Positions 2,801 to 31,699 of a stretch of DNA of 64,000 nt are shown piece after piece; within the stretch, counting starts at the first letter, position 1, and each line of letters starts with the position of its first letter. Where the stretch lies: NCBI RefSeq assembly GCF_014207635.1, contig NZ_JACHIE010000007.1, positions 1 through 64,000 of the forward strand. Direction: 5' to 3'. Source of the DNA: Acetobacter lovaniensis. GTDB taxonomy: Bacteria; Pseudomonadota; Alphaproteobacteria; Acetobacterales; Acetobacteraceae. A model generated the notes under the pieces. The model was given only the letters and a program-made list of their open reading frames with translations. It was not told the origin of the DNA and searched no databases. The translations under genes and the position numbers were made by a program.

Positions 2801-3568
2801 TCATTCCAGACCAAGAAAGGTTGCTGCCGGGGTCAGACTTTTATGAAAGTCGCGCAGAAAGCGAGAGACGGCACTCCGTTCTGTAATGGTCAGGTCCGGG
2901 TGCTTCAGACATTGAGCATATCGAAGGTTCAGGGCGTTGACCTTGGCGCGGGTGGCCGCGTGGAGACCGGGCATAGTGATTTCCACACCGCCCGCAGAGA
3001 GGATGCGCTCTCGCGCTTTACCGTAACGGCGTTGCCCTGAGACCTCATGACCATACCAGTATGGGAAGTCATTGCGCAGGTCGCGGCTTTCCCGGAGATT
3101 GAGAACGGCGACATGGTTGACCAGATCTGTGCCGAAGGTTTCCAGATACTGGCCGACGGATTGGGCACTCTCGATCTCATGATCCAGAAGATGCACAAGG
3201 GTAAGACGGACATGGTTTTCCGTCAGGGCGGTCAGAAACCCTTCGACGCTTTTACCATCGCCGATATCAATGATTTTCGAAATTTCAAACCGTGATCCAC
3301 CAGGCAGATCATGCAGAATGACGGCTTTGTCGGTATCAATGGAATTGAGAAGCGTGTCGCGTTCTCTCTCCTGCCTCAGGTCGTAAAACAGGACACCCAG
3401 ATCCTGATAGGTGCGGGCTAGACCACCCACCTGACCATCAGCGTCAAAGAGGGAGGCCTGTATTTTTCGGGTGTGATAAGTATCGACCAGAAGGCGAGCA
3501 AAGGTTGTTTTCCCAACGCCGCCTTTGCCAGAAACGATCAGCACGAGGCGTTTGACAGCCTGTTTCAT
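2801..3568 (-). CDS. ParA/MinD-type partition ATPase
   Basis: A 255-residue P-loop ATPase. The deviant Walker A motif SGKGGVGKTT lies at residues 13-22 with the signature Lys15 and catalytic Lys20 typical of ParA/MinD proteins. Such ATPases position plasmids or protein complexes on the nucleoid or membrane. No obvious ParB follows: the downstream gene is a membrane coiled-coil protein and the upstream one is a small putative DNA-binding protein. A conjugation-linked role (VirC1/TraL-like) is therefore as likely as plasmid partition. AGGA lies about 10 bases before the ATG. Confidence 0.85.
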   Translation of the reverse strand: MKQAVKRLVLIVSGKGGVGKTTFARLLVDTYHTRKIQASLFDADGQVGGLARTYQDLGVLFYDLRQERERDTLLNSIDTDKAVILHDLPGGSRFEISKIIDIGDGKSVEGFLTALTENHVRLTLVHLLDHEIESAQSVGQYLETFGTDLVNHVAVLNLRESRDLRNDFPYWYGHEVSGQRRYGKARERILSAGGVEITMPGLHAATRAKVNALNLRYAQCLKHPDLTITERSAVSRFLRDFHKSLTPAATFLGLE

Positions 3569-3690: not shown

Positions 3691-4074
3691 TCAGGCGTCC
3701 AGAAGTGGCGGTGGCTGGGAGATAAAGCCGCGCATGGAGGGCGATGGAGGAGACGGTGTCGCGGAATCCACTTTGGGTGTGCGCGGTGGTTTTGGCTTTA
3801 TGGTTCGTTTTTCCCGACCAATTTTCTTCATGTAGGTAGAGAGTGTTCCGGGGCTGAGGGTGATGCCTCGCGTTTTGAGCGTTGTGCAAATCTCCATATC
3901 TGACCAGCCATCGGCCTTCATCCTGAGAAGGGTTGGATAAATCTGTGTGATGACACCAAAGGCTGTGGCCGGTTTTCTGGCAGCACGCTCTTTGCGTTCA
4001 TTTTCCAGATCGGCAATCAGATCTTCAATCGTGCCGAGCATTGTAACTGAAGAAATTTTGTCTTTGCGAGGCAT
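3691..4074 (-). CDS. Small putative DNA-binding protein (TraK/MobC-like?)
   Basis: A 127-residue protein; start MPRKDKISS selected because GGAGGG precedes it, whereas the longer frame has no signal. The middle, WSDMEICTTLKTRGITLSPGTLSTYMKKI, looks like a helix-turn-helix with a recognition helix, and the C-terminus is Pro-rich and basic. It is first in the minus-strand cluster with the ParA ATPase and faces the MobF relaxase across 450 bp. It may be a relaxosome accessory or a partition regulator; this is inferred from context and the HTH pattern. Confidence 0.65.
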   Translation of the reverse strand: MPRKDKISSVTMLGTIEDLIADLENERKERAARKPATAFGVITQIYPTLLRMKADGWSDMEICTTLKTRGITLSPGTLSTYMKKIGREKRTIKPKPPRTPKVDSATPSPPSPSMRGFISQPPPLLDA

Positions 4075-4526
4075 GAGTATCCCTCCTGTGATGCAACAGA
4101 GTTTCAGGGAACAGGGTGTCATAGAATAAAAGAGCATCTTCTTTTCCCATGACCTGACAGGATCCTGATACGCAGAGTGTATCCGCCCTCACAGCAACCT
4201 TCACATCTTCGAAGACATGGTCTGGTTTCATACCTTCCTTTGTATTGTTCCCGTTCCCTTTAGAAATTAGCAACACACCACGCATCTTCGATGCTTTTAG
4301 GAAGAGACGGTGCATATTTTCCGGCAGGAAAGAGCCGTTTGTTTCGCGGAATCCATTGTGAAGGATCGTCAGGTATTTCAGATAGTTTTGCGGAGGATTC
4401 CGAGCATTATGTGGAATTCTTTTGAGCTTTCTGCCGGTCTTCCTGATGTGGCCTGAGGGGAAGAGGTGATCCTCTTCAGGCGACGCTATCCTGATCAGAC
4501 AAGTAGTCTTCTCAGGACATAAAAGC
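4075..4526. promoter_or_regulatory. Divergent intergenic region, candidate oriT for the MobF relaxase
   Basis: A 450-bp gap between the small DNA-binding gene and the MobF gene, with no convincing gene. A hairpin lies at 4452-4480 (AAGAGG / CCTCTT with outer CCTG / CAGG), about 50 bp before the relaxase start. MobF relaxases usually nick near inverted repeats close to their own gene, so oriT is plausible. No nic site can be identified by eye. Confidence 0.3.
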
Positions 4527-7500
4527 ATGTTTACCTGCACGCCCTTATCGGATGTCGAATATTATATTGACGCAGTGAATGAGGATCTCACGGCGCAAAG
4601 CGTTGTGACAGGGGAGGGGGCACGCCCTGCACGTGCCCCTCGGAAACGCGGTGATTGGTCAGGGCGGGATCGGGCTGCTTATTATCTGGATAATGGCACC
4701 GGCGAAAAGCCCGGCATCTGGTGGACCACTGTTTGTAAACTTCCGGGACAAAGCCTTCCGTTTGTTGAGCAAAAGGCAGAGGTCAGTCCATCTGATTTCA
4801 GGGCATTGGCAAGGGGATGCGATCCGCTGACGGGGCAGGCTCTGGTTCAAAGCAAAGGGCAGCGTCGTGTGGGGTATGATCTGCAATTTGCGGCCCCCAA
4901 ATCGGTATCGGTTTTGTGGGCCATGGGAACAGAGAGCCAACGTAATCGGATTGAGGCCGCGCAAGAAAAGGCCGTTTTTGCGGCACTTGAGTATGCCTTT
5001 ACAACCGGCCTGATCGTCACACGCAGGGGTCACAATGGCAGTCAGAAAGAAACACCCGCCGAATTAATGGCCGGCACATTTCTGCACACCACCAGTCGTG
5101 CGGGGGATCCTCAGATCCATACCCATGCGGTGTTGATGAATGTGTGTCGCCGTAAAGATGGCTCAACCGGCACGCTCGATAATCGGGAACTGCTTTTGCA
5201 CCAACAGGAAATGGGCGCGGTCTATCGTTTGGCATTGAGTGAGGCGCTGGAACGGGACCTTGGTCTGACAACACTCAAGGATGGTCGGAATTTCCGTGTG
5301 GCCGGTGTGGCGCCCAGTGTGGAAGAGCGCTTCTCAAAGAGACGGGCGGCCATTGAACAGGAAGCGCGTCATAGAGGGATACAGACAGCCCATCATAGGG
5401 AAGCGGCTGAACATATTTCCCGGAACACGCGTGGGGCCAAATCAGACCTGCCGTCACGGGCCGTTTTGCGGACGCGGTGGGAACAGGAAGTCCGGGAGGA
5501 GGGATGGACACCAGAGGCTCTATGGGAGTGTGCTTTGGCCGCGACAGGCTTGGAAGAGGTTCCATCACAGGATCCCCAAACGGTATTTGCCTGCGCCCTT
5601 GAGGAACTGACCCAGACAGAAGCTGTGTTTGAAGATCGCTATCTGATCGGCACCGTCTTGGAACACTGTCAGGGACGCAGGCTGACGTTGGCACAGGCCT
5701 TGGAAGAAGCCCATGCGGCCCGTCGGTCGGAGCATCTGATTGAGTTAACGGGGAACGCTCTCTCCCAGACCAGAAACCTGCATTACGCCACACCAGAGGT
5801 GATCAATGCGGAACGTGCGCTTGTGCGTCTGGCCACCACTCGTCGCGATGAACGGGCCTTTGTGTCACGAGACAGACTGGAAGGCGTTGTGGCAAAGAGA
5901 GAAACCCTTTCAGAGGAACAGGCCGATCTGGTGCGCCATGCTCTGAACCGCGATGGGGTGAGTGTCGTTGAAGGATCCGCTGGCACTGGGAAATCCTACA
6001 GTCTGGGAACAGCGGCAGCCGTGGCACGGGAGGCGGGCTGTCGGGTCTGGGTAACAGCGCCTTCCCATCAAGCGGTCTCTGTCATTGCGCAGGATACGCA
6101 AACACCCCCGGCACAGGCTGCTGTTCTGCGGAGTTTTCTGAATCGTCTGAAAGATCCTGATCATGCGCAGGCCATAACATTAGCGCGCCATGATGTGGTG
6201 ATCCTTGATGAGGGCGGCATGGTTGGTACCATGGAAATGGCGGAGCTTCTTGAGGTGACGTCCAAAGCGGGAGCCAAGGTCATTGTGGCGGGGGACACAC
6301 GGCAACTCAAACCGGTGGCTCCCGGATCTCCCATGCGGTTGTTGGCGGAGACACTGGGGACACAAAGACTGGAAGCCATCAGGCGCCAGAAAGAGATGTG
6401 GCAAAGACAGGCCAGTCAGGATTTGGCTGCCGGGCAGGTCGAACAGGCGGTAAGGTCTTATGACGCCCATGGTCGCATCATCGTAGGGGAAGGCGAGGCG
6501 TTGCAGCAGACATTGGTTGATGCGGTCTGTCAGGATGTCAGTGAAAACCCCAATGATACACGGCTGGTTCTGGCCCGTACCCATGCCGAAGTAAAAGCCC
6601 TTAATCAGGCGTTACGTTCTGTGCTGATCAGCAAGAGGGACCATGCTGGCGCGTGTGAGATTAGCGTTGAGGCAACAGCGCGTGGACGCAACCCCGTCGT
6701 CGAAGCCTTGCCTTTGGTTGCTGGTGATCGGCTCATCTTTGGAGAAACCCTAAAGGCCGGGGCGCATCTGGTGCGTAATAATGATCTGGCAACGGTGAAG
6801 GCGGCGTATCGGGACCCTGATGGAGAACCGGTTCTCTGTCTTGTTTTTGACCGGGGTTTTGAGGTGACGACACGCTGGACAGATTTGATCCCTGTCGGCC
6901 GCCATTCCAAGGGGCACAAAGAAGAACGTCCGATTAAGGTGCAACATGCCTATGCGGTAACACTTCATTCTGCCCAAGGGGCCAGTGTGGATCGGGCCTT
7001 TGTCCTCAATCGTGCGGGGTTGGATCGGGAACTGCTTTATGTGGCCATGACGCGGCATCGTCAGGCCTGCACACTCTATACCGATACGGCGCGCATGGCG
7101 CTTCTTTATCAAAAAAACCAGATCCGGCGTGACGGGGTGGTTGTGGATATTGATGGCGCTGGTCGGTTGGAGGCGCCTGATGCGCTGGATCAGGAGGACG
7201 AACAAACGCAGACCCTGACACCAAAAATGGCCATCAGGCAGATTATTCTGGAAGGACAGCAGTCTTCAGGAAAACAGAATGCGGCTGACTTCGTGGTGAA
7301 CCGGCAGGCATGGGCCGAGGCGCGTTCGGCTGAAGAGGCCGTAGCGCATGAGATCAGGACGCGGACGATCGCGTCAGAGGCTGTATTTGCCCAACCAAGA
7401 CAAGATCCCTCTTTTCTACCGCAAATTTCTAGGTCTTTTGCCAAACAGAGGTCAGATGGAGTGTCACATCGTGTGTCTGTACAGGACCAAAGGCAAGAAG

Positions 7501-7568
7501 AGGTGTGGAAGAAGGAAGCGATAAAAGAAACGCGGCCTCAAGGGCCGCGCCATGAACCAGAGTGGTAA
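4527..7568 (+). CDS. traA: MobF-family conjugative relaxase-helicase
   Basis: A 1013-residue TrwC/TraI-like relaxase. The N-terminal TrwC domain has paired tyrosines (EYYIDAV near residue 12, AYYLDNG near 52), the typical APKSVSVLWA stretch and the metal-binding HTHAVLMN motif (about 197-204). A RecD-like helicase follows, with Walker A EGSAGTGKS (about 480) and Walker B VVILDEGGMV. A late helicase motif reads AVTLHSAQGAS, and the charged tail is unconserved. It would nick oriT and unwind the transferred strand in the donor. No coupling protein or type IV secretion gene is visible nearby, so the element may be mobilisable rather than self-transmissible. Confidence 0.9.
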   Translation: MFTCTPLSDVEYYIDAVNEDLTAQSVVTGEGARPARAPRKRGDWSGRDRAAYYLDNGTGEKPGIWWTTVCKLPGQSLPFVEQKAEVSPSDFRALARGCDPLTGQALVQSKGQRRVGYDLQFAAPKSVSVLWAMGTESQRNRIEAAQEKAVFAALEYAFTTGLIVTRRGHNGSQKETPAELMAGTFLHTTSRAGDPQIHTHAVLMNVCRRKDGSTGTLDNRELLLHQQEMGAVYRLALSEALERDLGLTTLKDGRNFRVAGVAPSVEERFSKRRAAIEQEARHRGIQTAHHREAAEHISRNTRGAKSDLPSRAVLRTRWEQEVREEGWTPEALWECALAATGLEEVPSQDPQTVFACALEELTQTEAVFEDRYLIGTVLEHCQGRRLTLAQALEEAHAARRSEHLIELTGNALSQTRNLHYATPEVINAERALVRLATTRRDERAFVSRDRLEGVVAKRETLSEEQADLVRHALNRDGVSVVEGSAGTGKSYSLGTAAAVAREAGCRVWVTAPSHQAVSVIAQDTQTPPAQAAVLRSFLNRLKDPDHAQAITLARHDVVILDEGGMVGTMEMAELLEVTSKAGAKVIVAGDTRQLKPVAPGSPMRLLAETLGTQRLEAIRRQKEMWQRQASQDLAAGQVEQAVRSYDAHGRIIVGEGEALQQTLVDAVCQDVSENPNDTRLVLARTHAEVKALNQALRSVLISKRDHAGACEISVEATARGRNPVVEALPLVAGDRLIFGETLKAGAHLVRNNDLATVKAAYRDPDGEPVLCLVFDRGFEVTTRWTDLIPVGRHSKGHKEERPIKVQHAYAVTLHSAQGASVDRAFVLNRAGLDRELLYVAMTRHRQACTLYTDTARMALLYQKNQIRRDGVVVDIDGAGRLEAPDALDQEDEQTQTLTPKMAIRQIILEGQQSSGKQNAADFVVNRQAWAEARSAEEAVAHEIRTRTIASEAVFAQPRQDPSFLPQISRSFAKQRSDGVSHRVSVQDQRQEEVWKKEAIKETRPQGPRHEPEW

Positions 7569-14020: not shown

Positions 14021-14059
14021 GGTAATCCCCCCACTTTTAGTGGGGTTCTGACTGAGAAT

Positions 14060-14887
14060 TCAGGCAATTGCTTTTAGTTTCTGAGCGGGTGTGAACCCGC
14101 CGTTCCCCATGTTGGGTCTGTCATGGTTATATGTCCAGAGCCATTGTGTTGCGACCTCCTGTACGTCCTGAATGCTTTCAAACAGAGACTGCTCCAGCCA
14201 TTCCTGCCGGACTGTTCTGTTGTAGCGTTCGATATAGGCGTTCTGTTGCGGATTGCCCGGTTGCGTATAGATCAAGGTAATTCCTTGTTTTGCGGCCCAT
14301 GAAACCAACGTATGACTGATATATTCAGGGCCATTATCCATTCTGATAGCCCCTGGCCTGCCGCGCCACTCCATAACCTGTTCCAGACAGCGGACAACCC
14401 GACAGGCCGGCAAGGAAAAATCAACCTCAATCGCCAGTCCTTCACGATTAAAGTCATCCAGAATGTTCAGGAGACGAAAAGCGCGTCCATCCAAAAGCCT
14501 GTCTGCCATAAAATCCATGGACCAGACCGTGTTGGGAAGGGTCGGAACCGAAAGTTTTTCAGGCTTTTCGCGAACCAGACGTCTGCGGGGTTTAATCCGC
14601 AGGTTAAGTTCCAGCTCCCGATAGATCCGATAAACCCGCTTATGGTTCCAGGGCTGTCCCTGCACATTACGTAGATACAGGAAACACAGGCCAAATCCCC
14701 ATCTCCTGTGAGCCTGGGTCAGTCCCACCAGAAGAGCGGCAATCCGGTCGTTCTCCGCTGCCAGTCGCGGACGATAGCGAAAGCAGGTTTCCGATATCCC
14801 AAAAATCCGACAGGCCAGCGCAATGCTGACCCCGTGATGCGCCACAGCCTCTACGGCCAGTTCCCGGCGCTGGACTGGCCTCTTCAT
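14060..14887 (-). CDS. IS3-family transposase OrfB (DDE integrase domain)
   Basis: A 275-residue catalytic part of an IS3 transposase. The DDE triad is visible: Asp in WSMDFMAD, Asp in DNGPEY and Glu in [10 protein letters not shown]. The region starts [10 protein letters not shown] directly at the OrfA stop. Its ATG overlaps that stop (ATGA) and the preceding A7 (14887-14893) allows a -1 frameshift making an OrfAB fusion, which is the active transposase in this family. Confidence 0.9.
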
Positions 14888-15147
14888 TTTTTTCCAAAGG
14901 CTTCCTTCAGGATATCCGTCTGCATGCTCAGATCCGCATACATACGCTTCAGCCGACGGTTCTCCTCTTCCAGAGCCTTCATCTGACTGATCATAGACGC
15001 ATCCATGCCGCCATATTTCGCGCGCCACCGGTAAAACGTGGCATTGCTGATCCCATGCTCCCGGCACAGCTCTGGAACCGGGACGCCACCTTCAGCCTGA
15101 CGGACCACACCCATGATCTGCGCGTCAGTAAAGCGATCACTCTTCAT
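14884..15147 (-). CDS. IS3-family transposase OrfA (HTH domain)
   Basis: An 87-residue protein with a helix-turn-helix ([24 protein letters not shown]) that recognises the IS ends, then a leucine-zipper-like segment ([18 protein letters not shown]). Start MKSDRFTD is chosen because AGGAG lies six bases upstream. It ends in the A7 slippery run shared with OrfB. Confidence 0.88.
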
Positions 15148-15217
15148 CAGAATCTCCTCATTCCATACGCTGAGAAAATTCTCATTCAAAAGCCACTCTT
15201 TTTATGGGGGGATTACC

Positions 15218-15280
15218 GGTGTATCGCCAGAAACGGTTCTGAATATTCGGCGCAGGATGGAAAGGGGGCGTTCAATTTGA
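15218..15280 (+). pseudogene. 3' remnant of the split HTH gene
   Basis: Beginning in the second copy of the GGTG duplication, this stretch reads in frame GVSPETVLNIRRRMERGRSI and a stop. It supplies the missing recognition helix of the gene starting at 13075. The stop codon overlaps a third copy of GTTCAATTTGAAC (15270-15282). Confidence 0.8.
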
Positions 15281-15282
15281 AC
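15270..15282. repeat. Palindrome GTTCAATTTGAAC, copy 3
   Basis: Third identical copy, overlapping the stop codon of the split HTH gene. Confidence 0.5.
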
Positions 15283-15673
15283 ATGAGGTCACAGAGGGTG
15301 AGAGGTCAGTCATGTTTCTCTTTCTGTGATCTCGTGCTCCAATCATCACTCTCTGTGGGCCAATAATATCGGCGGTTATGGGATGGAACTGCGCAGCCAT
15401 TGGGCATTGCGCTGATCGATGGGCTGCTGGCAAGTCAGGCCCAGCCCATGTTCATGATCAAAGCGTTTGATGGCAGATATGGGGGGGGAAGCGAAAGTCC
15501 GCTATCTGCGCTTGAACGTAAAATAGCAGACGTTCTTATTCATCTAAACTGTATGTTGAACGATGTGAAAACCTTCGTCTGGTTTGGGCAGCGTGAAACC
15601 TTGAGAATGTAACGTTGCCGTTGATAATCTCACTGTAAGATCCAGAGCAATTCAACCGTAGGAAAGCCACTGA
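15281..15673. other. Non-coding gap after the split gene
   Basis: About 390 bp with no convincing gene. A 70-codon frame at 15400 lacks a start signal and family resemblance and may be debris. The tail holds the leader of the alpha/beta hydrolase. Confidence 0.4.
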
Positions 15674-19962: not shown

Positions 19963-20015
19963 ACTGTCAAGGAGAAGGCGGCACGAGAAAGTGCCACCTT
20001 CTCCTAAGGTTCATA

Positions 20016-20372
20016 TTACATGACGTGCGACGAAGGCGTATTCTTTGTTGTCTCCTGGCCTGATCGGCTCAGATGCTCTGTGTCGATCGCCCGGAAGGGC
20101 GGGATGGGCTGTCCGGGATAATAAACCGGCCCATTATAGTTCTGATCCAACTGGCTTTCATTCAGCCGGTCAATCAGCATATCGCCTGTGCCGTCCACAT
20201 AACGAGTGCGCGGCTCGCTTTTTTGCGTTGCAGAAGTCGACGGTGCCGTTCTTGCATCGAATGATGTCTGGGTCTTCCGGGTAACACCATCAGCATATGC
20301 ACCCGATTGGCACAGCAGAGGCGCAATCAGGGCCAGGCACGACAAAACTCCTCTCATTCTTTTCATGCTCAT
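20016..20372 (-). CDS. Small exported protein
   Basis: A 118-residue protein with a signal peptide (GVLSCLALIAPLLCQSGAYA). The mature part is short, polar and rich in Ser, Thr and Pro, containing TRYVDGTGDMLIDRLNESQLDQNYNGPVYYPG. No family is recognised. It is convergent with the PsiE-like gene and downstream of the small heat-shock gene on the same strand. Confidence 0.6.
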   Translation of the reverse strand: MSMKRMRGVLSCLALIAPLLCQSGAYADGVTRKTQTSFDARTAPSTSATQKSEPRTRYVDGTGDMLIDRLNESQLDQNYNGPVYYPGQPIPPFRAIDTEHLSRSGQETTKNTPSSHVM

Positions 20373-20431
20373 GATCTTTCGAGACTTCCCCTGGTCGTTC
20401 AGCCGACCGGGGAAGAGTTTTTGTCACGCCA

Positions 20432-20920
20432 TCAGGCAGCCTCTTTCTGCGCCTCAATCTGAGGCACAACTTGCCCTGCAGGCGTCGTGGACGACGTGAT
20501 TGCGATACGGCGCGGTTTCAGCGCTTCCGGTATCTCACGCCTCAGGGTGATGGACAGGAGCCCGTTCTCGAAGCGGGCGTCGGTGACTTTCATATGCTCG
20601 GCCAGAGCGAAGCGACATTCGAACTCTCTGCCTGCAATGCCGCGATGGAGATACTCGATCGCGTCTTGAGGCTCGGGCGCCTTTCGCCCTGTCACGACCA
20701 GAGTATTACGCTCCTGCGTGATCGTAAGGTCATTCTCGGCAAGACCGGCAACTGCCATGTCGATCCGGTAATCATCCTCACCGGTCTTGAGGATGTCGTA
20801 AGGCGGCCAATTATCGACCGTCGGAATCCGGTTGGCGAGATCAAGAGCGTTCAGCATTCTGTCAAAGCCGATGCTTGAACGGAACAGGGGTGCAAAGTCA
20901 ACAGTGGCTCTCATAGCCAT
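20432..20920 (-). CDS. Small heat-shock protein (Hsp20/IbpA family)
   Basis: A 162-residue alpha-crystallin-type chaperone. The beta-sandwich core is visible (YRIDMAVAGLAENDLTITQERNTLVVTG), with the hallmark ARFENGLLSITLRREIP near the C-terminus. It would hold unfolded proteins as oligomers in the cytoplasm. The start at 20920 is set by AAAGGAG; the frame extends further without a signal. Copies on mobile elements are common in acetic acid bacteria and fit heat or acid stress. Confidence 0.9.
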   Translation of the reverse strand: MAMRATVDFAPLFRSSIGFDRMLNALDLANRIPTVDNWPPYDILKTGEDDYRIDMAVAGLAENDLTITQERNTLVVTGRKAPEPQDAIEYLHRGIAGREFECRFALAEHMKVTDARFENGLLSITLRREIPEALKPRRIAITSSTTPAGQVVPQIEAQKEAA

Positions 20921-21239
20921 ATTCTCCTTTGAGCAACATGGACACAAGATTAATGCAGCTTCTGACTGCACGCCGACCCCTTTCGGCAGCCAGCAATCTG
21001 TATCTGGATTTCCCTTCAGAGTCTTCAAGAGGCGAAAATGAAAATAACACTGTAATCCCGACTCTCCCTATATCGTGGATCTGAAATACTGCGGCTTAGA
21101 GAAGAAACGTTGGAAGAACGACGTCTGCTCTCCGAAAACTTATGTAGGCCTTAAAATGTCGATAGAGAGGGCGATTGCCGCCTGTCTGCTGTTGCCATGC
21201 CGAGGAATAAGGGAAGTGGGGAAAGGAAAGGGGCGTGTT
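20921..21239. promoter_or_regulatory. Upstream region of the heat-shock gene, possible sigma-32-like promoter
   Basis: No gene is seen. On the minus strand CTTGAA (21029-21024) and CCAGATA (21007-21001) lie 16 bp apart, weakly resembling the RpoH pattern CTTGAA / CCCCAT. They sit about 80 bp before the small heat-shock gene, a reasonable distance; the match is suggestive only. Confidence 0.3.
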
Positions 21240-22130
21240 TCAGGCACGGGCTGAGAAACGATCCCATGCGGTAATTTCACGGGTGAGCAGGGCGACCTCA
21301 CGAAGATAGATTTCTGTTTTCAGGAAATGCTGTTCGTCTTCTTTTTGCGCCTGCGGCACTTCGGTAAACCACGCTTTGGGGCGACCATCTGTGCCGTCAT
21401 TCCAGCGGTAGCCACGCGCCTTGAGCTTATCTTTAAGGTCAAAGGGGGCATTCTCCGCCCAGATCTGCCAGCGGGGTTGCCGCGCTTCCTGAAGCAGGAC
21501 GGAGAGGGCTGGGGTCTGTGTTTTAGGCAGACATGTGCTGAGTAAGGTAACACCAGCCAGACAATCATCAGCGGTCCGGTGTCCCTCAAAAAACCACCCG
21601 GCCTGCATGACGAGATAACCAAGGCTGCGCCCTTCATAGCCTTCTGCCTGCCAGGGCACATCTTCCATGGAACAGGCCCAGGGCAGTGTTGAAAATCCCT
21701 CCCAGAAGCGTTCGGCAAATAGCCTGTCAAAGCGGGCGTTATGGGCGACGATGAGGGCTGCCTGGGCCGCGAACTGGGCGACCTCTTCAGGGGCGATGGT
21801 TTTACCTGCAACCATCTCCTGTGTGATGCCGGTAAGGGCTGTAATGTCGGAAGGGATGGGGTGGGAAGGCTCTCTCAGACGATTGAAGGGCGGTAAGGTG
21901 CCGAGAACGCGCCCATCCAGCGTATAGACAAAGGGCACCATCCCGAATTCGATGATTTCATGACAGGCCGGGTCGAGGCCGGTGGTTTCAAGATCCAGAA
22001 AAAGGCCCACACGGGTCTGGTCGCGCGGTACGTGCGTCTCAAGCGGAAGGGGCGCGATACGACGTAAAACCCGGTAAGCACCTGTGGCTTCCAAGGTGCG
22101 TGCCTGATCTTCCAGCGAGGTGTGTTGCAC
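21240..22130 (-). CDS. DnaQ-like 3'-5' exonuclease
   Basis: A 296-residue DEDDh-type exonuclease. Exo I is FLDLETTGLD (Asp46, Glu48), Exo II lies in IVAHNARFDR and Exo III in HRTADDC. The C-terminal 90 residues (PFDLKDKLKARGYRWNDGTDGRPKAWF) form a separate domain often found with such exonucleases and of unclear role. It would degrade single-stranded DNA or RNA ends. It is on a mobile element and not near polymerase genes, so it is probably an accessory nuclease and not the replicative proofreading subunit. Confidence 0.85.
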   Translation of the reverse strand: MQHTSLEDQARTLEATGAYRVLRRIAPLPLETHVPRDQTRVGLFLDLETTGLDPACHEIIEFGMVPFVYTLDGRVLGTLPPFNRLREPSHPIPSDITALTGITQEMVAGKTIAPEEVAQFAAQAALIVAHNARFDRLFAERFWEGFSTLPWACSMEDVPWQAEGYEGRSLGYLVMQAGWFFEGHRTADDCLAGVTLLSTCLPKTQTPALSVLLQEARQPRWQIWAENAPFDLKDKLKARGYRWNDGTDGRPKAWFTEVPQAQKEDEQHFLKTEIYLREVALLTREITAWDRFSARA

Positions 22131-22212
22131 AGAAGCGCTCCCTTAACGCCTGGTGTGATAAACAGGGGGCAATCCGTTACAGGCTGTGACAGCATTAGAA
22201 GGAGGAAGTCTC

Positions 22213-22545
22213 ATGCGCAAAGCCGGTTTTATGTTGATGATAGCCCTTGGTCTTTTAGGGCCGGTTTGTGGTTTTGCCCAGTCATCGGGGGACTGGCTGC
22301 CGCAGTCGGGTGTGAAATCCCCCTATAGTCCGTTGGCGGTTCCCACGACGTTGAAACCACTTGCGTTGTCTTTGACCGAGTTATTGAACAAGGGTTTCAA
22401 GGTCATCAGCGCGACGGATTATTCTGGGCAAGGGGTTCTTTTAACAGTAGAGGGGCGTAAGCAAACTGTGTTGTGTGTGTTAACCGCACCCAATCTCCAG
22501 ACAGATCAGAACGTGCCGACTTCACGCTGTTGGGCTTTGAATTAA
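22213..22545 (+). CDS. Small exported protein
   Basis: A 110-residue protein with a signal peptide (AGFMLMIALGLLGPVCGFAQ) and a strong GGAGGA before the ATG. The mature domain is about 85 residues with two Cys (TVLCVLTA, TSRCWALN) likely to form a disulphide. No family is recognised. It is divergent from the exonuclease and lies just before the palindrome array. Confidence 0.6.
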   Translation: MRKAGFMLMIALGLLGPVCGFAQSSGDWLPQSGVKSPYSPLAVPTTLKPLALSLTELLNKGFKVISATDYSGQGVLLTVEGRKQTVLCVLTAPNLQTDQNVPTSRCWALN

Positions 22546-22961
22546 GGGACTGATTTAACGTCATAAATTGATTGGGAAGAGGTGTCCGGTTGGGCAACAG
22601 CGCATCTTTTTGCGGACACTGTGAGGGGCGTTTTATGCGACCATTGGTCGCCTAGGTTTCCTCTCAAAGCGACCAATGGTCGCATTTGAGGGTTTGGCCA
22701 TGCGACCAAGGGTCGTTGATGAAGGGAGGATGGTGCGACCGTTGGTCGCCTGGGTTTCCTTCCAAAGCGACCAATGGTCGCACTTGAGGGTTTGACCATG
22801 CGACCAATGGTCGTTGATGAAGGGAGGGTGATGCGACCGTTGGTCGCCTAGGTTTCCTTTCAAAGCGACCAATGGTCGCATGGCGAGAAAGGGCTGGTGA
22901 TAAGAAACAGCACCAGTGTCCTTCATCCGGTCCCTAAAGCCAGCGCAGGCCGGCTAGGTGT
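22546..22961. other. Gene-free region holding the palindrome array
   Basis: Between a small exported-protein gene and the integrase stop. The only content seen is the array at 22638-22878 with short flanks. Two minus-strand frames cross the array, but the repeat period (98 bp) is not a multiple of three and they lack start signals. Confidence 0.6.
22638..22878. repeat. Phased array of eight CGACC-N3-GGTCG palindromes
   Basis: Eight 13-bp sites, each CGACC, three bases, GGTCG, begin at 22638, 22670, 22703, 22736, 22768, 22801, 22834 and 22866. Spacing is 32 or 33 bp throughout, close to three helical turns, so all sites would face the same side. The spacers also recur, giving a 98-bp three-site superunit present about 2.7 times. 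This looks like a multi-site protein-binding array (centromere, iteron or regulator); the binding protein is unknown. Confidence 0.85.
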
Positions 22962-24557
22962 TCACCAGTTTGCAATGTCATCGGGATAGGTAATGGCCTC
23001 CACAACCCGCTGGAGATTTTGCAGATAAATAGCCGATGTGTATTGGGTCGTGCCCTGACTTTTATGAGTGGCTTCATGGCCTAACAGGTCATCAATCCAA
23101 AGCTCTCGAATGTGATTGTCCTGATTTCTGAGCACGGTTGAAACCAGATGGCGGAAGGAGTGAAAGGTGACCTGCGTTGGCAGGTTCAGGCGCCGTTTAT
23201 GTTTGGAAAAGATCAGTTCAAAATTGGCGCCCCGCACCCCGAAATTGGAGATAGGCAGTTCGCTGAAGAAATAGGGGCCGGCGTTTCTGAATTCCTCAAG
23301 GATCCCTTTTTCCAGAAGTTTGCTGTGAATGGGCACGATACGGGTGCCAGCCGATGTCTTGGGAGACCATTCCCGAATTTTGCCGTCGATCTCAACCGTA
23401 TGGGGCCGGATGTGGAAACAGGGAATACCGTTCAGGACTTCGATATCCTCATTCCTCAGATTGCAGATCTCGCCCAGACGCATGCCGGTATAAAGAGCAA
23501 TGCGCACAATGCCCCGATAGGTGCGTTCGGGGAAAACACGTCCCAGCCATTTTGACGTCAGGAGTGTTCTCAGTTCGTCTTCTGACCAGGCCCGGCGATT
23601 GGTCTTTTGTGTTAAATCGAAAGACCAGTTGGCCCAAGGGTTTTTGGGGGCGAGGTCTCGTAAAACTAATGCATTCCATATTGGGGACATGCGCGAGAAA
23701 TGATTTTTGACGGTCTTGCCGGAGACGAGTTCCGCTCCATCTTCCTCCGCCTCTCTGACAGCGTCTCGAAGGGGGAGGGTGATCTTTCCTTTACCATGGG
23801 TGGTCGGCAGGCCAGACAGCAGGTCGTAAAATTCTCCAACAATGTCGCCTGTGATCTGATGAACCGGGATATCCCCGAAGGCTTCGGTGAAGAGGGCTAC
23901 GGTCTTGCCAGTTCCCTTGATAGTGCCAGCACTTTTGGATGGCACTGAGAAGACAAATTTGTCCGCCGCCGTCGACAGTTTCATGCTGCGCGGTTGTTTG
24001 GACGAGGATTTCTGCCCATCGGTTTTGTCTTCATTGTGAGGCAGGTGGGTCTGGATCAAGTTACAGAACGTGGTGATCTGGTTTTGTAAGCCCTGTTTTT
24101 CGGTGACAGACCAGATTTCTCGTTTTTCGAGGGTGTGCCTGAGTTGTCCCAGTCCCTTCAGAAGGCCTTCCATGTGAGGCAGGACCGTATTGAGGAAGGT
24201 GGACTGCTTGGTGACCAGATCGGCTTTTTCAATGAGATGCTGGGCGCGCTCGGCTTCGAGCACTTTCTCGGCACTCTCTTCCTGAGCCTTCAGAGCGGCC
24301 TCGTAGCTTTGGATCAGGTCGCGATAGAGGGCCAGAAGGTCGTCTTTGGTGGGGTGTTGCATCTTGCCTGCTCTGAAAAGCTGTCCCGTCCTGGCATACA
24401 GGGCGGCTGCACGTTCACGGGCGACCAGTTTATCAGAGGTATGGAGGACAAGGGAAATCTCGGTCTTGCCCAACAGGGGACGGAGCAGTGCCGGGACGAT
24501 GCGGCGGAAGTGATAACGAGGCTGTCCTGTGCGTCGGGACGGGATGGCGCGGAGCAT
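22962..24557 (-). CDS. Tyrosine recombinase (integrase of the left element)
   Basis: A 531-residue phage-type integrase. The C-terminal catalytic domain has the first Arg in YTGMRLGEICNLR, the HSFRH box, the second His in LLGHEATHKSQ and the probable nucleophile in TTQYTS. The N-terminal half is long and partly coiled coil. It starts 63 bp from a copy of the tRNA-Leu 3' end, as expected for an integrase beside its attachment site. It is clearly related to the integrase at 42152-43777 (YHFRR.P..LRPLLG+TEISL at both N-termini). It would integrate and excise the left element. Confidence 0.9.
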   Translation of the reverse strand: MLRAIPSRRTGQPRYHFRRIVPALLRPLLGKTEISLVLHTSDKLVARERAAALYARTGQLFRAGKMQHPTKDDLLALYRDLIQSYEAALKAQEESAEKVLEAERAQHLIEKADLVTKQSTFLNTVLPHMEGLLKGLGQLRHTLEKREIWSVTEKQGLQNQITTFCNLIQTHLPHNEDKTDGQKSSSKQPRSMKLSTAADKFVFSVPSKSAGTIKGTGKTVALFTEAFGDIPVHQITGDIVGEFYDLLSGLPTTHGKGKITLPLRDAVREAEEDGAELVSGKTVKNHFSRMSPIWNALVLRDLAPKNPWANWSFDLTQKTNRRAWSEDELRTLLTSKWLGRVFPERTYRGIVRIALYTGMRLGEICNLRNEDIEVLNGIPCFHIRPHTVEIDGKIREWSPKTSAGTRIVPIHSKLLEKGILEEFRNAGPYFFSELPISNFGVRGANFELIFSKHKRRLNLPTQVTFHSFRHLVSTVLRNQDNHIRELWIDDLLGHEATHKSQGTTQYTSAIYLQNLQRVVEAITYPDDIANW

Positions 24558-24561
24558 GAAG

Positions 24562-24580
24562 TTTTCCCATTATGGGAAAA
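24562..24580. promoter_or_regulatory. Palindrome TTTTCCCATTATGGGAAAA upstream of the left integrase
   Basis: A perfect 9-bp-arm palindrome ending five bases before the integrase ATG. Its core TTCCCATTATGGGAA recurs at the same place before the second integrase. It is probably an operator or arm-type site. Confidence 0.6.
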
Positions 24581-24619
24581 TTCCCTCTCGGACAAAATAC
24601 CTCTGTTTTTCAACAGCTT

Positions 24620-24645
24620 GTGGTGCGAACTGCGGGACTCGAACC
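24620..24645 (-). other. Attachment-site copy from the tRNA-Leu 3' end
   Basis: These 26 bp are identical to 43864-43889, the 3' end (CCA and TPsiC arm) of the complete tRNA-Leu gene, and diverge at the next base. The rest of the tRNA is absent, so this is not a tRNA gene but an att core left by integration. It marks the boundary of the middle island and also lies next to the left integrase. Confidence 0.85.
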
Positions 24646-24858
24646 TTCATAGTCCTGCACAGTCCCGCAGTTAACCTCTTGAAAAGACGAACAAAGTGCT
24701 CTGTCGTCACCTTCGGGGTTGAATTTCTGGTAGGCATTTTGGTTGAACATTATGGGAAGGTCAAGCCGGGCAAGGGGCCGCATTCGCGGTGTTGCGTAGT
24801 GTGGGAATACGGTATGACTACATGAAGGTATGAAGCGTAGCAGAAGGTAAAGAGCAGC

Positions 24859-25260
24859 ATGTTGTATCTCACGCCATTGGAAAGGGCTCTTGACCGTTTG
24901 AAAGAAGGTTGGGTGCGGCATGAGGCTGAACCAACGGATGAGCAGTTACGCGATGGCCTGATACAACGCTTTGAGTTTACCTATGAACTTAGCCACAAAA
25001 CCCTGAAACGGTTTTTGGAACAGAATTCCGCCTCACCAGAAGAATATGACCGGATGGGATTTCCAGACCTTATTCGCTCCGCCAATGAAGCTGGTCTCCT
25101 AAAAGGGTCTTGGGCTGAATGGAGTGTGTATCGGAAGATGCGCAATTTAACGAGCCATACCTATAACGAGATAACGGCACGGCAGGTTGTGGCGGGTATT
25201 CCTGATTTTATAGAAGAGGCTGCATTCTTGTTGCAGGTCTTAAAAGAACGCACCGCATGA
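24859..25260 (+). CDS. HEPN-domain toxin (nucleotidyltransferase substrate-binding type)
   Basis: A 133-residue all-helical HEPN protein. The RX4HXY motif is present at Arg95-His100-Tyr102 (RNLTSHTY). In HEPN/MNT modules this protein is an RNase toxin that its partner silences by adenylylation. Its stop overlaps the partner start by four bases (ATGA). It is the first gene next to the att site, a common place for island-stabilising toxin-antitoxin pairs. Confidence 0.85.
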   Translation: MLYLTPLERALDRLKEGWVRHEAEPTDEQLRDGLIQRFEFTYELSHKTLKRFLEQNSASPEEYDRMGFPDLIRSANEAGLLKGSWAEWSVYRKMRNLTSHTYNEITARQVVAGIPDFIEEAAFLLQVLKERTA

Positions 25261-25580
25261 CATCTGCTTTGGCTCTTTCCTCAAAAGAGAAACTCACAGT
25301 CACAACTCTTCTCAAAGAGTTTGTGCCAGATAAAGAGGTTTGGGTGTTTGGTTCCAGAGCAAAAGGAACTGCCAAGCCATATTCAGATTTGGACCTTGTG
25401 ATTATTGGCGAAGAGCCACTGCCTTTACTGGTGCGCGTCGGTTTGGAAGAGGCTTTTTCTTCATCTCTGCTGCCTTGGAAAGTCGATGTGCTGGACTGGG
25501 CAATAACCGATGACGTTTTTCGTGACCTGATTCAGAAAGACCATATTGTTATTCAAATACCCTTAGAAAATATTTGCTAA
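25257..25580 (+). CDS. MNT-type nucleotidyltransferase antitoxin
   Basis: A 107-residue minimal nucleotidyltransferase with the signature GSRAKG then SDLDL (Gly32, Ser33, Asp44, Asp46) and a third acidic residue probably in KVDVLDW. It would inactivate the HEPN partner by transferring AMP to the Tyr of its motif, as established for characterised HEPN/MNT pairs. Translation is coupled to the toxin gene. Confidence 0.85.
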   Translation: MTSALALSSKEKLTVTTLLKEFVPDKEVWVFGSRAKGTAKPYSDLDLVIIGEEPLPLLVRVGLEEAFSSSLLPWKVDVLDWAITDDVFRDLIQKDHIVIQIPLENIC

Positions 25581-25884
25581 AGACGCGTTCACTGAGGGTT
25601 CCTTTTCTCTGACGTCCCTCGTTTAACAGTCTTCTGAAAATACCTTTTAAAGGTGAGCTGTTGAGAACTCATCAAGAGCTAAAAGGCCTTTTCCAGCACT
25701 AGAGCCTGCCACACAGTGAGGGCATCACATTCCCAGCCCGGTCACTTGCAGAAAAGTTGGTTACCTTAAAGCCAGCCGTGCAAACCAGCGGACACGTTGT
25801 GTCGCGATGGTTTGCAATCTGGTCAGGGGGAAGCGTTGCTTTCCCCCGTGAACCCCCTTTTCTGTGGTGAAGGAGTGCCTTGCC
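25581..25884. promoter_or_regulatory. Intergenic region with oriT-like inverted repeats
   Basis: No gene is seen. Two nested structures lie 40-100 bp before mobC: GCAAACCA (25780-25787) with TGGTTTGC (25808-25815), and GGGGGAAGC (25826-25834) with GCTTTCCCCC (25838-25847, one bulged base). Inverted repeats directly upstream of a mobC-relaxase pair are the usual form of an oriT in mobilisable elements. The nick site cannot be read by eye. Confidence 0.5.
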
Positions 25885-26235
25885 ATGTCTGTCAGACAAT
25901 CCCCAAAAACCCATGGCCGGTGCCATGATATGCGTATCCGCCTGTCCGATGCGGAACATGCTGTTTTAAAGCGTGCGGCATGTGCCGCTGGTGTCACCTG
26001 TTCGTCATGGCTGCGGTCTGTGATGCTGGCTGCTATTGCAACCAGAGGGCGACATGACGCCCTTGTTGTTGCCTTGCAGGAGGTGGCGCATCAGCTCTCG
26101 GCCATTGGCAATAACCTGAATCAGATAGCTCATGTTTTAAACGGGGGCCGGAGTGCCGATGTTGGACAAACCCTCCTGGCCGTCGATGACGCTACCGCTC
26201 ATACTCGTGCTCTTTTGCGGGAGATACGGGCGTGA
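25885..26235 (+). CDS. mobC: MobC-like relaxosome protein
   Basis: A 116-residue mobilisation accessory protein. It starts with a ribbon-helix-helix-like stretch (HDMRIRLSDAEHAVLKRAACAAGVTCSSWLRSVML), and the C-terminal half carries the bacterial MobC pattern HQLSAIGNNLNQIAHVLN. It would bind oriT and help the relaxase. AGGAG nine bases upstream fixes the start at 25885. Its TGA overlaps the GTG start of the relaxase (GTGA), showing coupling. Confidence 0.88.
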   Translation: MSVRQSPKTHGRCHDMRIRLSDAEHAVLKRAACAAGVTCSSWLRSVMLAAIATRGRHDALVVALQEVAHQLSAIGNNLNQIAHVLNGGRSADVGQTLLAVDDATAHTRALLREIRA

Positions 26236-27653
26236 TTATCAAGGCCTCCCGTATCACGGCAGAAAGCACGCACCGGCATCTGTTCCGCCACCTCATGCGG
26301 ACGGACGAGAATGAAGAGGTCCGAATAGTGCAGGGTAGAGAGTTTGCCCTTGCCGAGGCGGTCAAAGATGCACGCCACGCTAAACGGCGGTATGGCTTGC
26401 GTCACGTTATTCTCAGCCCGGAACAGGCGACATCTCCTGAGACATTCCAGAAGATAGTGACACTCTACCAAAGTGAATTTGGGGCTGACCCACCTCTGAT
26501 GATTGTAGAGCACCAGAAAAAGCGGGCTGATGGTCTAAGCTATGACAGGCACTGGCATGTGGTGTTTGCTGAAACCCTCGCTAACGGGCGCAGTCTGGAC
26601 TCTCGCTTTATCCGTATCAGGAACGAAAAGGTGGCCCGATTTACGGAACTGGCCTTTGGTCACCCTCTGACATCAGGCAAGCATAATGATGCAGTCATCA
26701 GGGCGCTGGAAGCCTCTTCTAATCCCCATATGCAGCGGGCTGCCACAGACCTCAAGCAGGCTTTCTGGGGAGAAGGCCATACGCCACAGTCAACATTTAC
26801 GGACAAGGCCCATCAGGTCACGAAGCGCAAAGCTGGGAAATCAGTGTTACCAGTCCTGCGAACGCACTTGCGCAAACGTTGGCAGGAAGAGGGAAGGGTC
26901 TTACTTTCTTTTATCGAACGGGTAGCTGAAGAGGGGTATCTTCTGCGAGAGGGAGAGAAGCCTGACGTCTGGTTGATTGGTCAAAATGGAGGCGCTCATC
27001 TTGCTTTGCATCGTGTGCTAGGGCTGAAGAAAAAAGAGCTCGTCGCCTTATTGTCGGATGCCAATAGGTCTGTTTCCTTATCTCCACCGCGTTTGACGGT
27101 ACGGGAGATGAAGGCAGTCAAGCCTCGGCCCGTGGTTGTGCCTCCTGAATACGCACAGAGGCTTGAAGCGTTAATAAAACGTATTCGGCCAAGGTGGAAA
27201 CGGTCTGAGTGTCGGGCGGAATTAATTGCCTTACCCTACCAAAACATGGTGCGACGACTGGAAAACAGCACGTTGGGAGAGATGCTGGAGCGGCTGCTGG
27301 CAGCCCTTATTGCCCGAATGCTGAGGGCACTCTTTGGGTTGTCCATAGAGGTGCCTCCCATAACAGCAGTCGAAGCGAGAGGGCGGATTTCAAAGGCGTG
27401 CGCGGAGGTAGCCTCTTTACGGCAGCAGGACGTGCAGGAGCATTTTGCATCACCAGAAGTGCAGGCAGCCTTGAAAGAACGCAGGCTTTTAAAGCAGTGC
27501 CTGGTGTCAGCCAATCCGGTAACGCGGCAGGCGATGCAGGAGGGTGCGTGGACGGAGGCAATGATGAGTCTAAGAGGCGAGCCGCGTGTGCCAGTTCACG
27601 CTGTGCTAAAAATGCAGCAGCAGAAGACGGTCTCGTATTTAGGTGGTCTGTAG
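26232..27653 (+). CDS. Relaxase/mobilisation nuclease
   Basis: A 473-residue relaxase, probably of the MobP/VirD2-related group. The metal-binding stretch is YDRHWHVVFAE near residue 115, with an upstream GLRHVILSPEQ segment. The N-terminal catalytic Tyr is less clear. The C-terminal half is basic and helical. It starts with GTG overlapping the mobC stop. It would nick the middle island at oriT for transfer by a helper conjugation system; no type IV secretion genes are in the window. It differs in class from the MobF relaxase of the left element. Confidence 0.8.
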   Translation: MIIKASRITAESTHRHLFRHLMRTDENEEVRIVQGREFALAEAVKDARHAKRRYGLRHVILSPEQATSPETFQKIVTLYQSEFGADPPLMIVEHQKKRADGLSYDRHWHVVFAETLANGRSLDSRFIRIRNEKVARFTELAFGHPLTSGKHNDAVIRALEASSNPHMQRAATDLKQAFWGEGHTPQSTFTDKAHQVTKRKAGKSVLPVLRTHLRKRWQEEGRVLLSFIERVAEEGYLLREGEKPDVWLIGQNGGAHLALHRVLGLKKKELVALLSDANRSVSLSPPRLTVREMKAVKPRPVVVPPEYAQRLEALIKRIRPRWKRSECRAELIALPYQNMVRRLENSTLGEMLERLLAALIARMLRALFGLSIEVPPITAVEARGRISKACAEVASLRQQDVQEHFASPEVQAALKERRLLKQCLVSANPVTRQAMQEGAWTEAMMSLRGEPRVPVHAVLKMQQQKTVSYLGGL

Positions 27654-27750
27654 GCTCTCTGGCCTTTCGGGGGCATGAACTGGTTTTGCTGTCAAACATC
27701 TTCATGGTTATGGTCGGCTAACGCCTCTTCTCGGTCGTAAAGAGAGTCGC

Positions 27751-28842
27751 TCAAGGTTTTGGTAAGCGGACATCCTGTGTCGGTGATGCAAGCCAGTCCG
27801 TGAGTTGCCGGACCATGGATCGCGCGACACGGCCCGCTCCCAGGAGGGTTGCGGATGCGGGACCGCACCAGAAGCCATACCCCAGCAGCCACAGGCGTGG
27901 CTCCCTGACGGCCTGCTGCCCGTTCACGTGGATCAGCCCGTCCGGCTCGATCACGTCGAGTGGTGCAAATGCAGAGAGCGCGGGACGGAAGCCTGTACAC
28001 CAGATGATCGCGTCAATGGCTTCTTCCTGTCCGCCGGGCCAGACGACGCCCGTAGCCGTCATGCGCACGAACGGGCGCACCGCGTGGAAGACACCGCGCT
28101 CCCGGGCGGCCCGTACGGGCGGCACCATGACGATATCGCCAAAGCCTCCTGTCGGCATGGCGCCGGCGTTGCCCAGGACTCGTGCGGTCGCCCGTTCGAA
28201 CAGAACCCGTCCATCCACATCGTCGGGCAGGAATACCGGATCCTGCAGCGTCACCCACGTTGCGTTCGCGAGCAGTGACACTTCCGCCAGGATCTGCGCC
28301 CCGGAGTTACCGCCACCGACCACGAGCACGCGCCGACCGGCAAAAGGTGCGGGGATCTGATAGTGCGCGGAATGGATCTGCGTCCCGCCGAAGAGGTCAC
28401 GCCCCGCGACATCGGGAACAAAGGGGGCTGACCACGTACCGGTCGCCCCGATAACCGCACGGCCAAGAAGATCACCCGCGCTGGTTCTGACAGTCAGAAG
28501 TTTTCCGTTCGCGCGCTCCACACACTCGACCATGACCGGACGGCGGATCGGCGGCGCATAGCGCGCCTCGTAGCGGTGCAGATAGTCCAACACCTCGTCA
28601 CGGGTCGGATAGCCGCCATCCGGCATGTCTGGCATCGGCCAGCCGGGCAGCGAACTGTAGGACGCGGGTGAAAACAGATGCAGGGAGTCCCAGCCATGCA
28701 CCCATGCACCACCCGCCTGCGTCCCGTTATCAAGAATGACGTAACGCAGTCCGGTCCGTCGTAGAAAATACGACGCGGCGAGGGCCGCCTGACCGCCTCC
28801 CACGATCACAACATCGAACTGTTCCGCCATTGCCCGGCTCAC
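27751..28842 (-). CDS. arsO: FAD-dependent monooxygenase, ArsO-like
   Basis: A 363-residue flavoprotein. The FAD dinucleotide motif [13 protein letters not shown] is at the N-terminus and a second NADPH-type motif [13 protein letters not shown] is mid-protein; [12 protein letters not shown] is typical of this monooxygenase branch. As the last gene of the arsenic operon it fits ArsO, a flavoprotein often found after arsH. Its reaction is unproven; a role in organoarsenical or arsenite oxidation is inferred from context. The GTG start overlaps the arsH stop; an in-frame ATG lies at 28830. Confidence 0.75.
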
Positions 28843-29554
28843 AGACTTTCCGGGAGACGGAATTCCGCCTTGCGTTCGCTGTAGCGATCAACGAGGTAGT
28901 CGGCCCGGTCGCGCAGCAGCCATGTGAACTTCATCAGCTCCTCCATGACATCTACCATCCGGTCATAGAGGGGGGATGGCTTCATCCGGTCATCGTCACC
29001 GAACTGGGTATAGGCCATCGGCACGCTGGACTGATTGGGGACGGTGAACATCCGCATCCACCGGCCCAGCACCCGTAGGGCATTGACGGAATTGAAGCTC
29101 TGCGATCCGCCCGAAACCTGCATGACCGCCAGCGTGCGGCCTTGAGTCGGACGGATCGATCCTTCGGACAATGGCAGCCAGTCGATCTGGTTCTTGAACA
29201 CGGCGGTAATGTTCCCGTGCCGTTCGGGGCTGCACCAGACTTGACCTTCCGACCAGATCGAGAGTTCCCGTAGTTCCTGCACTTTCGGATGGGTCGCGGA
29301 CACAGAATCCGCTACCGGCAGGTCGGTCGGGTCAAACACCCGTGTCTCGGCCCCCAGCACCTTCAGGATGCGTTCCGCCTCAAGAACCAACAGATGGCTG
29401 AAGGATCGGGAACGTAAAGAGCCATAGAGCAGTAGGATACGCGGCGGATGGTCCACACGCGGTTGCGGTTCCAGCCGCGCGAGATCGACCTGTTCAAGAT
29501 ATTCGGGGTGGAGGGCTGGCAAGTCAGATTCGGTCATTATGGTCCATTCGTGCA

Positions 29555-29555
<1 letters not shown>
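28839..29555 (-). CDS. arsH: ArsH, NADPH-dependent FMN reductase
   Basis: A 238-residue flavodoxin-fold oxidoreductase. The FMN phosphate loop is [12 protein letters not shown], and [23 protein letters not shown] is highly characteristic of ArsH, which oxidises trivalent organoarsenicals. The ATG at 29555 shares a base with the arsB stop (TAATG); a second ATG at 29537 is equally possible because neither has a good ribosome site. The frame continues upstream inside arsB without meaning. Confidence 0.9.
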
Positions 29556-30849
<1,294 letters not shown>

Positions 30850-30850
<1 letters not shown>

Positions 30851-31272
30851 CAGGAGATCCGCTTTCCGGATTCATCGACGATCTTCTCGCCGTCCTCTTT
30901 GACGAAAGCGCCCCGCTGCGGGTTGGGCAGGATTTCCAGAGCCGCCTCGGACGGACGGCAGAGCGCAACACCGAGGGGGGTGACGACGATCGGCCGGTTC
31001 ATCAGGATCGGGTGTGCGATCATGGCGTCGATCAGCGTATCGTCCGTCAGGGTCGGATTATCGAGGCCGAGCTCGTGAAAGGGCGTGCCCTTTTCCCGCA
31101 GGACCGAGCGCACCGGAAGCCCCATACGGGCGATCAGATCGACCAGTTCGGCCCGGCTCGGCGGCGTTTTCAGATATTCGATGATCCGGGGCTCCTCGCC
31201 GCTGTTGCGGATCAGTGCCAGCACGTTGCGCGACGTGCCGCAGGCCGGGTTGTGGTAGATCGTGATGGTCAT
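30850..31272 (-). CDS. arsC: ArsC, glutaredoxin-coupled arsenate reductase
   Basis: A 140-residue thioredoxin-fold enzyme. The catalytic motif [10 protein letters not shown] places Cys11 as the nucleophile, and the arginines expected to bind arsenate appear in the family segments ([15 protein letters not shown]). It reduces arsenate to arsenite for export by ArsB. The start overlaps the arsR stop by four bases. Confidence 0.93.
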
Positions 31273-31622
31273 GGGCAGGATTCCCGGGATGGGCAGCAGG
31301 AGGACAGGTTCGCGACCAGGGGCGCGCAGAGTTCGGGGCTGCCCGCACAGCAGTCTCTTACGAGGAAGAGCATCAGGTCGCGCAAGCGCGGAAGGCGCGC
31401 ACGATAGACGATCAGCCGGCTGTAGCGCTGCGAGGTCAGCAGGCCGGCACGGGTCAGGGTGGCAAGATGGGCCGAGATCGTGTTCTGCGAGACATCGAGA
31501 TGCCGCGCGACGTCTCCAGCGGGTAGTCCGTCCGGTTCGTGGCGCACCAGCAGGCGGAAGATCTCCATTCGCGTGGACTGCGACAGAGCGCTCAGGGCAG
31601 CGAGGGCAGATTCTGTATCCAT
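31269..31622 (-). CDS. arsR: ArsR-family metalloregulator
   Basis: A 117-residue ArsR/SmtB repressor with a winged HTH (GDVARHLDVSQNTISAHLATLTRAGLL). It lacks the classical ELCVCDL metal site in the DNA-binding helix. Instead, cysteines cluster at the C-terminus (Cys91, Cys92, Cys99, then Cys109, Cys110, Cys116), which fits an alternative arsenite site of the kind described for atypical ArsR proteins. It heads the operon; a TTGACT -35-like hexamer lies at 31657-31652 upstream, without a clear -10. Confidence 0.88.
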   Translation of the reverse strand: MDTESALAALSALSQSTRMEIFRLLVRHEPDGLPAGDVARHLDVSQNTISAHLATLTRAGLLTSQRYSRLIVYRARLPRLRDLMLFLVRDCCAGSPELCAPLVANLSSCCPSRESCP

Positions 31623-31699
31623 AAATCGACGATCACGGATATATTAGATGAAGTCAACACTACCGAGGACATGCCTCGTTCAAAACCTGGAATACGGTG

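Follow-up and report, generated by a model that had tools for sequence, protein, structure and literature searches.

A palindrome array at the integrase end of a tRNA-Leu island in Acetobacter, possibly a centromere-like protein-binding site

What purpose could be served by eight palindromes repeated at nearly constant steps in a gap between genes, next to an integrase? This arrangement occurs in a stretch of 64,000 nucleotides of Acetobacter lovaniensis (contig NZ_JACHIE010000007.1, positions 1 to 64,000; hereafter the window), in which an array of about 245 bp, with no strand assigned, occupies positions 22635..22880, as delimited by Tandem Repeats Finder (TRF), pattern matches and step counts. 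Our preferred answer, held tentatively as a reading that falls a little short of probable, is that an integrative mobilizable element seated at tRNA-Leu in Acetobacter may use the array as a centromere-like site to which protein binds at multiple positions.

Exact copies of the 13-mer CGACC-N3-GGTCG number eight in the window, span 22638-22878 and start at 22638, 22670, 22703, 22736, 22768, 22801, 22834, and 22866, with successive steps of 32, 33, 33, 32, 33, 33, and 32 bp. When up to one mismatch was allowed, nine were found in the 64 kb against 2.14 expected, a number attained by none of 100 shuffles; the ninth, with one mismatch, lies outside the array, at 2308. TRF resolved the array into a 98-bp unit present in 2.5 copies (91% match) with three sites per unit, and the second unit is 87% identical to the first, the spacers being repeated as well. 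The eight palindromes, their 32-33-bp steps and the 98-bp superunit, as proposed for the window in an earlier note on this DNA, were therefore confirmed by pattern counts, shuffles and TRF. The core is preferably given as the 15-mer GCGACC-N3-GGTCGC, exact in six of the eight sites and with a final T in the other two. In order, the sites are GCGACC-ATT-GGTCGC (22637..22651), GCGACC-AAT-GGTCGC (22669..22683, where the dyad is extended by the flanks CTCAAA and TTTGAG), GCGACC-AAG-GGTCGT (22702..22716), GCGACC-GTT-GGTCGC (22735..22749), GCGACC-AAT-GGTCGC (22767..22781), GCGACC-AAT-GGTCGT (22800..22814), GCGACC-GTT-GGTCGC (22833..22847), and GCGACC-AAT-GGTCGC (22865..22879), none of them assigned a strand.

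The gap that holds the array, between the convergent genes for a 119-amino-acid (aa) protein and a 531-aa integrase, extends over 22546-22961 and is bounded by two stop codons. Two mechanical minus-strand open reading frames (ORFs), of 85 and 97 aa, run across it, and its earlier description as gene-free and beside the integrase stands. We read the array as non-coding because a 98-bp unit is not divisible by 3, and a coding repeat is rejected on that reading; clustered regularly interspaced short palindromic repeats (CRISPR) are rejected too, the spacers recurring within the 98-bp units and not being unique. The preference already expressed for a centromere, iteron or chromatin-organising site over these two possibilities thus holds as regards what is excluded, while the centromere role itself keeps the tentative, not quite probable standing given above. 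A match to the Rfam family MIR1444 on the array (scan of 20000-26000; 32 bits against a cut-off of 80) was ascribed to the palindromes. The further suggestion that all sites lie on one face of the DNA depends on the helical repeat, for which four values were tried: at 10.4, 10.5, 10.6, and 10.9 bp per turn, the eight sites of the window give a resultant of 0.13, 0.13, 0.44, and 0.98, and the steps of the 88-bp units found in two relatives (see below) give one of 0.11, 0.04, 0.25, and 0.84. At 10.5 bp per turn the residual angles are 17, 51, 120, and 0 degrees for steps of 32, 33, 35, and 21 bp. A common face would therefore require a helical repeat near 10.9 and does not result at 10.4-10.6.

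Does the array belong to the genome or to an element within it? Among 49 genomes of the genus, a pattern of two sites was found in five, each time at the same integrase clade; these carriers are the window's own genome (G000), G218, G207, G224, and G212. Among 200 genomes drawn from the family, four of them from the genus, it was found in one, namely the window's own. This search in relatives, which the earlier note had called for, indicates that the array tracks a mobile island. A blastn search with the array DNA matched three of the 49 genomes, the remaining carriers G212 and G224 holding a diverged array, and gave no match in the plasmid collection at E 0.01. The integrase was matched at E 1e-20 in 39 of the 49 genomes, and 30 of the matches were made into loci; the array is present at five of the loci inspected, which form one clade with integrases 81-100% identical to that of the window, and absent from 25, including that of G203, where the integrase end and the array position are deleted. 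At another of these loci (L146) a different 4-base palindrome occurs three times with uneven spacing. The array has been lost at six remnant loci, and in G222, G221, G214, G243, and G227 the 119-aa gene stands beside an integrase C-terminal fragment, a common deletion having removed the array.

The restriction of the array to the 3' end of a single integrase clade, and its loss along with the C-terminal end of the integrase, by two or more distinct deletions that retained the 119-aa gene (G203, and the five genomes just named), would suit an accessory recombination site, with the palindromes bound as arm-type or enhancer sites by the integrase or by an excision factor. However, proximity alone can explain the joint deletion, the array is 1.7 kb from the attachment site (att), its motif is by eye unlike the att core, and besides the decayed copy of G203 there are 24 other related integrase loci inspected that lack it, so that we regard this role as improbable. 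In all five carriers the exact 15-mer is confined to the array, and for that reason it is not the operator of a global regulator there; an operator at some other promoter of these genomes is rejected on the same observation. One mismatch adds six further places in G000, making 14 overall against 39 for a reversed control pattern, and the array-less G203 has the exact 15-mer at two other places.

Which part of the repeat is kept can be judged from the carriers. The 98-bp units provide eight positions in G000, eight in G218 and six in G207, the sixth of which has an inner arm change. In G224 there are seven positions, two of them degenerate, in 88-bp units with steps of 32, 35, and 21 bp, and G212 has four full positions, of which one is degenerate, up to the point where an insertion sequence interrupts the array and cuts a fifth; one position per 88-bp unit is degenerate. 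The fragment interrupting the array of G212 (L236, 3731-3841) is 95% identical to window positions 15107-15217 over 111 bases. With steps of 32/35/21 bp in G224 and G212, the 32-33-bp spacing does not hold as a conserved rule. Between G000 and G218, differences affect none of 80 arm, 1 of 24 centre and 11 of 139 spacer positions (Fisher p=0.008), and from unit to unit they affect none of 50 arm against 9 of 80 spacer positions in G000 (p=0.013) and none of 50 against 7 of 80 in G218 (p=0.04), while the contrast between G000 and G207 is not significant (1/60 against 7/99, p=0.26), all these tests overstating independence, since units homogenise. The 12 arm bases recur exactly in the 88-bp arrays, at five of the seven positions in G224 and three of the four in G212, while the spacers differ and no compensatory arm changes were seen by eye. 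Identical arms with other spacers in this lineage point to a sequence that would be recognised, and not to an exact spacing. A tandem repeat without function, spread from one palindrome by slippage or unequal crossing-over, would agree with the variable copy number and unit length, the degenerate position of each 88-bp unit, the losses at remnant loci and the non-significant contrast for G207, but we consider it improbable, given that arms are kept while spacers drift, both between G000 and G218 and inside each of these two arrays.

The position of the array between convergent 3' ends, seen in the four of the five carriers with both genes in view (in G212 the array breaks off ahead of the second gene), raises another possibility, namely that of a row of hairpins similar in function to repetitive extragenic palindromic (REP) sequences and bacterial interspersed mosaic elements (BIMEs), whose stem-loops in RNA or extruded DNA would block read-through, RNase or polymerase collision. 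Both strands fold far above shuffles (z of -10.1 and -12.0), and four short stretches tested as DNA give stems over array sites, although strong folding does not discriminate, being expected of any palindrome array. Most REPs are reported, in the excerpted text of the source, to lie between ORFs that are unidirectional or convergent (PMC3733652), and a contig pattern scan found, among the matches listed, GACC-N3-GGTC arrays at 29-36-bp steps in some loci of other bacteria. The matches listed were mostly from Stenotrophomonas and Planctomycetota/Pirellulales, and we read them as repeats of their own. Against hairpins, the arm sequence is retained without compensatory pairs by eye, the carriers have no dispersed copies, and three terminator-like sites were predicted (1.5 expected) of which none is an array palindrome, so that we find this explanation unlikely. 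An array of intrinsic terminators is rejected, as the terminator-like sites of the two strands include no palindrome of the array and the site at 22606-22628 (+) only abuts it. REPs proper, mobilised by a REP-associated tyrosine transposase (RAYT), share with the array the tandem palindromes in an intergenic gap between convergent genes, but the array has no dispersed exact copies in the carriers and no GTAG tag by eye; the RAYT domain Y1_Tnp was found in none of the five carriers (one assembly being 86% complete) against 5 of 14 control genomes, and with the exact 15-mer present only in the array of all five this reading is rejected.

We return to the array as a possible centromere-like binding site. 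It may act in cis, at the integrase end of the element, as a multi-copy site for a dimeric, sequence-specific DNA-binding protein, with one dimer on each 15-bp palindrome; several dimers over about 245 bp could then form a single nucleoprotein complex, as do SopB on sopC and StbA on the stbDRs. Its most likely use would be centromere-like, the excised circle being tethered or partitioned and perhaps marked for transfer. The array resembles sopC of plasmid F, the site of SopB, in its tandem units with one inverted repeat each, and the F centromere site likewise has GACC/GGTC arms. sopC differs in lying downstream of sopAB on a plasmid, while the array has steps of 32-33 bp, an N3 centre and no adjacent SopAB-type pair; sopC comprises, as described in an excerpt, twelve 43-bp repeats, each with a 16-bp inverted repeat bound by a dimer (PMC9178275). 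No parA-parB pair was found beside the array, whose neighbours are the integrase and the 119-aa gene, and ParB_N had no match within the corresponding element of G207 (202465-238637). Replication iterons are also tandem intergenic sites on a mobile element. Iterons usually take the form of direct repeats next to a rep gene, and no Rep protein was recognised among the scanned proteins. Such a role for a 486-aa protein was rejected, its model having a mean predicted local distance difference test (pLDDT) score of 43 and its best fold matches being mitoribosomal, DapE and ferredoxin-like, none at E 0.001.

The leading candidate for the binder would be a protein of the element itself, of 148 aa with a helix-turn-helix (HTH) domain (3691..4137, -), which is StbA-like by its predicted fold, a match obtained in a second look with VIA-align among the matches listed. 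Its neighbours are a 255-aa ParA/TraL-like ATPase with a KGGVGKT motif (2801..3568, -), StbB-like to judge by its position, and a 1013-aa MobF (TrwC-type) relaxase (4527..7568, +). Between the StbA-like and relaxase genes, a segment of 21 nt, CAACACACCACGCATCTTCGA (4271..4291, +), is shared by four Acetobacter genomes (G000, G233, G220, and G030) and is likely to be the origin of transfer (oriT)/nic region. With a protein that is StbA-like by fold, a ParA-like ATPase and a TrwC-type relaxase, this module may be likened to the stb-MOB region of plasmid R388, according to the part of the source consulted (PMC3098194). The stbDRs of R388 are, like the array, a multi-copy site, but are direct repeats of 9 bp, in two sets of five, located at the stb promoter, while the array is palindromic and 18 kb away. 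No tandem repeats beyond those of 20 shuffles were found at 4041-4530, upstream of the StbA-like gene of G000, which leaves the array as the one conspicuous candidate target observed. Searches on plasmids found neither the StbA-like nor the 486-aa protein.

Several observations weigh against the StbA-like protein as the binder. Its fold match has a low Z for the helical domain, and the ATPase and relaxase are broken in G218. Moreover, two of the five carriers, G212 and G224, have no match to the protein (E 0.001), to its ATPase or to its relaxase, a departure from the co-occurrence of StbA and stbDRs which speaks against an obligate partner of the array. StbA is poorly conserved, as stated in the excerpted source, and a diverged copy could escape this search (PMC3098194). 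It is in our view improbable, and somewhat more so given the low Z and the broken genes of G218, that the integrated island is equipped at its integrase end with a multi-site centromere of its own, and that the StbA-like protein of an R388-like stbAB-relaxase module 18 kb away uses these palindromes and not promoter-linked direct repeats. Of the two candidate binders first put forward, the 3691 protein may thus credibly be assigned a DNA-binding role in a mobilization/partition-type module, by its fold match and its neighbours, but appears not to be an obligate partner, and the HTH protein at 13075 had no Pfam or PHROGs match.

The array bears on the question of how integrative elements persist after excision: it travels with one integrase lineage, and the island that holds it also encodes a specific candidate binder. 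If the centromere-like reading is true, the array would serve the segregation of the excised circle or its choice for transfer. A literature search, with most subscription papers outside it, returned no paper with any of the three palindrome strings tried, none on DUF6538 with an integrase and none joining integrative and conjugative elements, palindromic repeats, centromere and partition; we rate the array as a variant, not before described in the literature searched, of a known multi-site kind.

The surroundings of the array suggest how the element is placed. The tyrosine integrase (531 aa, 22962..24557, -; DUF6538 and Phage_integrase) converges on the 119-aa gene (22186..22545, +), whose product has no family match and, by eye, a hydrophobic N-terminal stretch resembling a signal peptide; a 296-aa 3'-5' exonuclease is encoded at 21240..22130 (-; RNase_T, NF006615). 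The att copy of the array-bearing element, a tRNA-Leu 3' end (24622..24645, no strand assigned), sits just before the integrase start, and a second copy, at 43866, is inside the tRNA-Leu gene itself, beside a second, related integrase (42152-43789). In our reading, two islands are stacked at a single tRNA-Leu, and the array probably belongs to the outer of them. G207 (stretch 186000-256000) has four att copies, at 189741, 202465, 238637, and 250500, which indicate stacked islands as well; the second and third of these would delimit its array element (202465-238637), and between them lie both the array and the StbA-like/ParA-like/MobF module. The block common to this element and window positions 96-15501 is about 97% identical, save for an insertion sequence found in the window only. 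In addition, the array marks a family of islands stacked in tandem at tRNA-Leu in Acetobacter.

Other features were observed in the same regions. The insertion sequence of the window, with an rve transposase (14060-15067), lies beside the HTH gene at 13075 and is absent at that place in G207. The second island of the window (24622-43889) has, besides its own integrase, a HepT/MNT-like pair at 24859-25580. Near the array, a ROSE RNA thermometer (20908-20993, -; 56.3 bits, cut-off 45) is found where the gene for a small heat-shock protein (hsp20) begins. The array element of G207 has at its far end (L218, 6845-10379) a subtilase and an AAA ATPase that resemble the anti-phage pair IteS/IteA, well under the NCBIfam cut-offs, and a Tle1-like phospholipase domain protein with LysM (L218, 10794-12176) lies near the far att copy. 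Finally, a perfect CAGTGC hexamer repeat of 10.7 copies occupies window positions 61314-61377.
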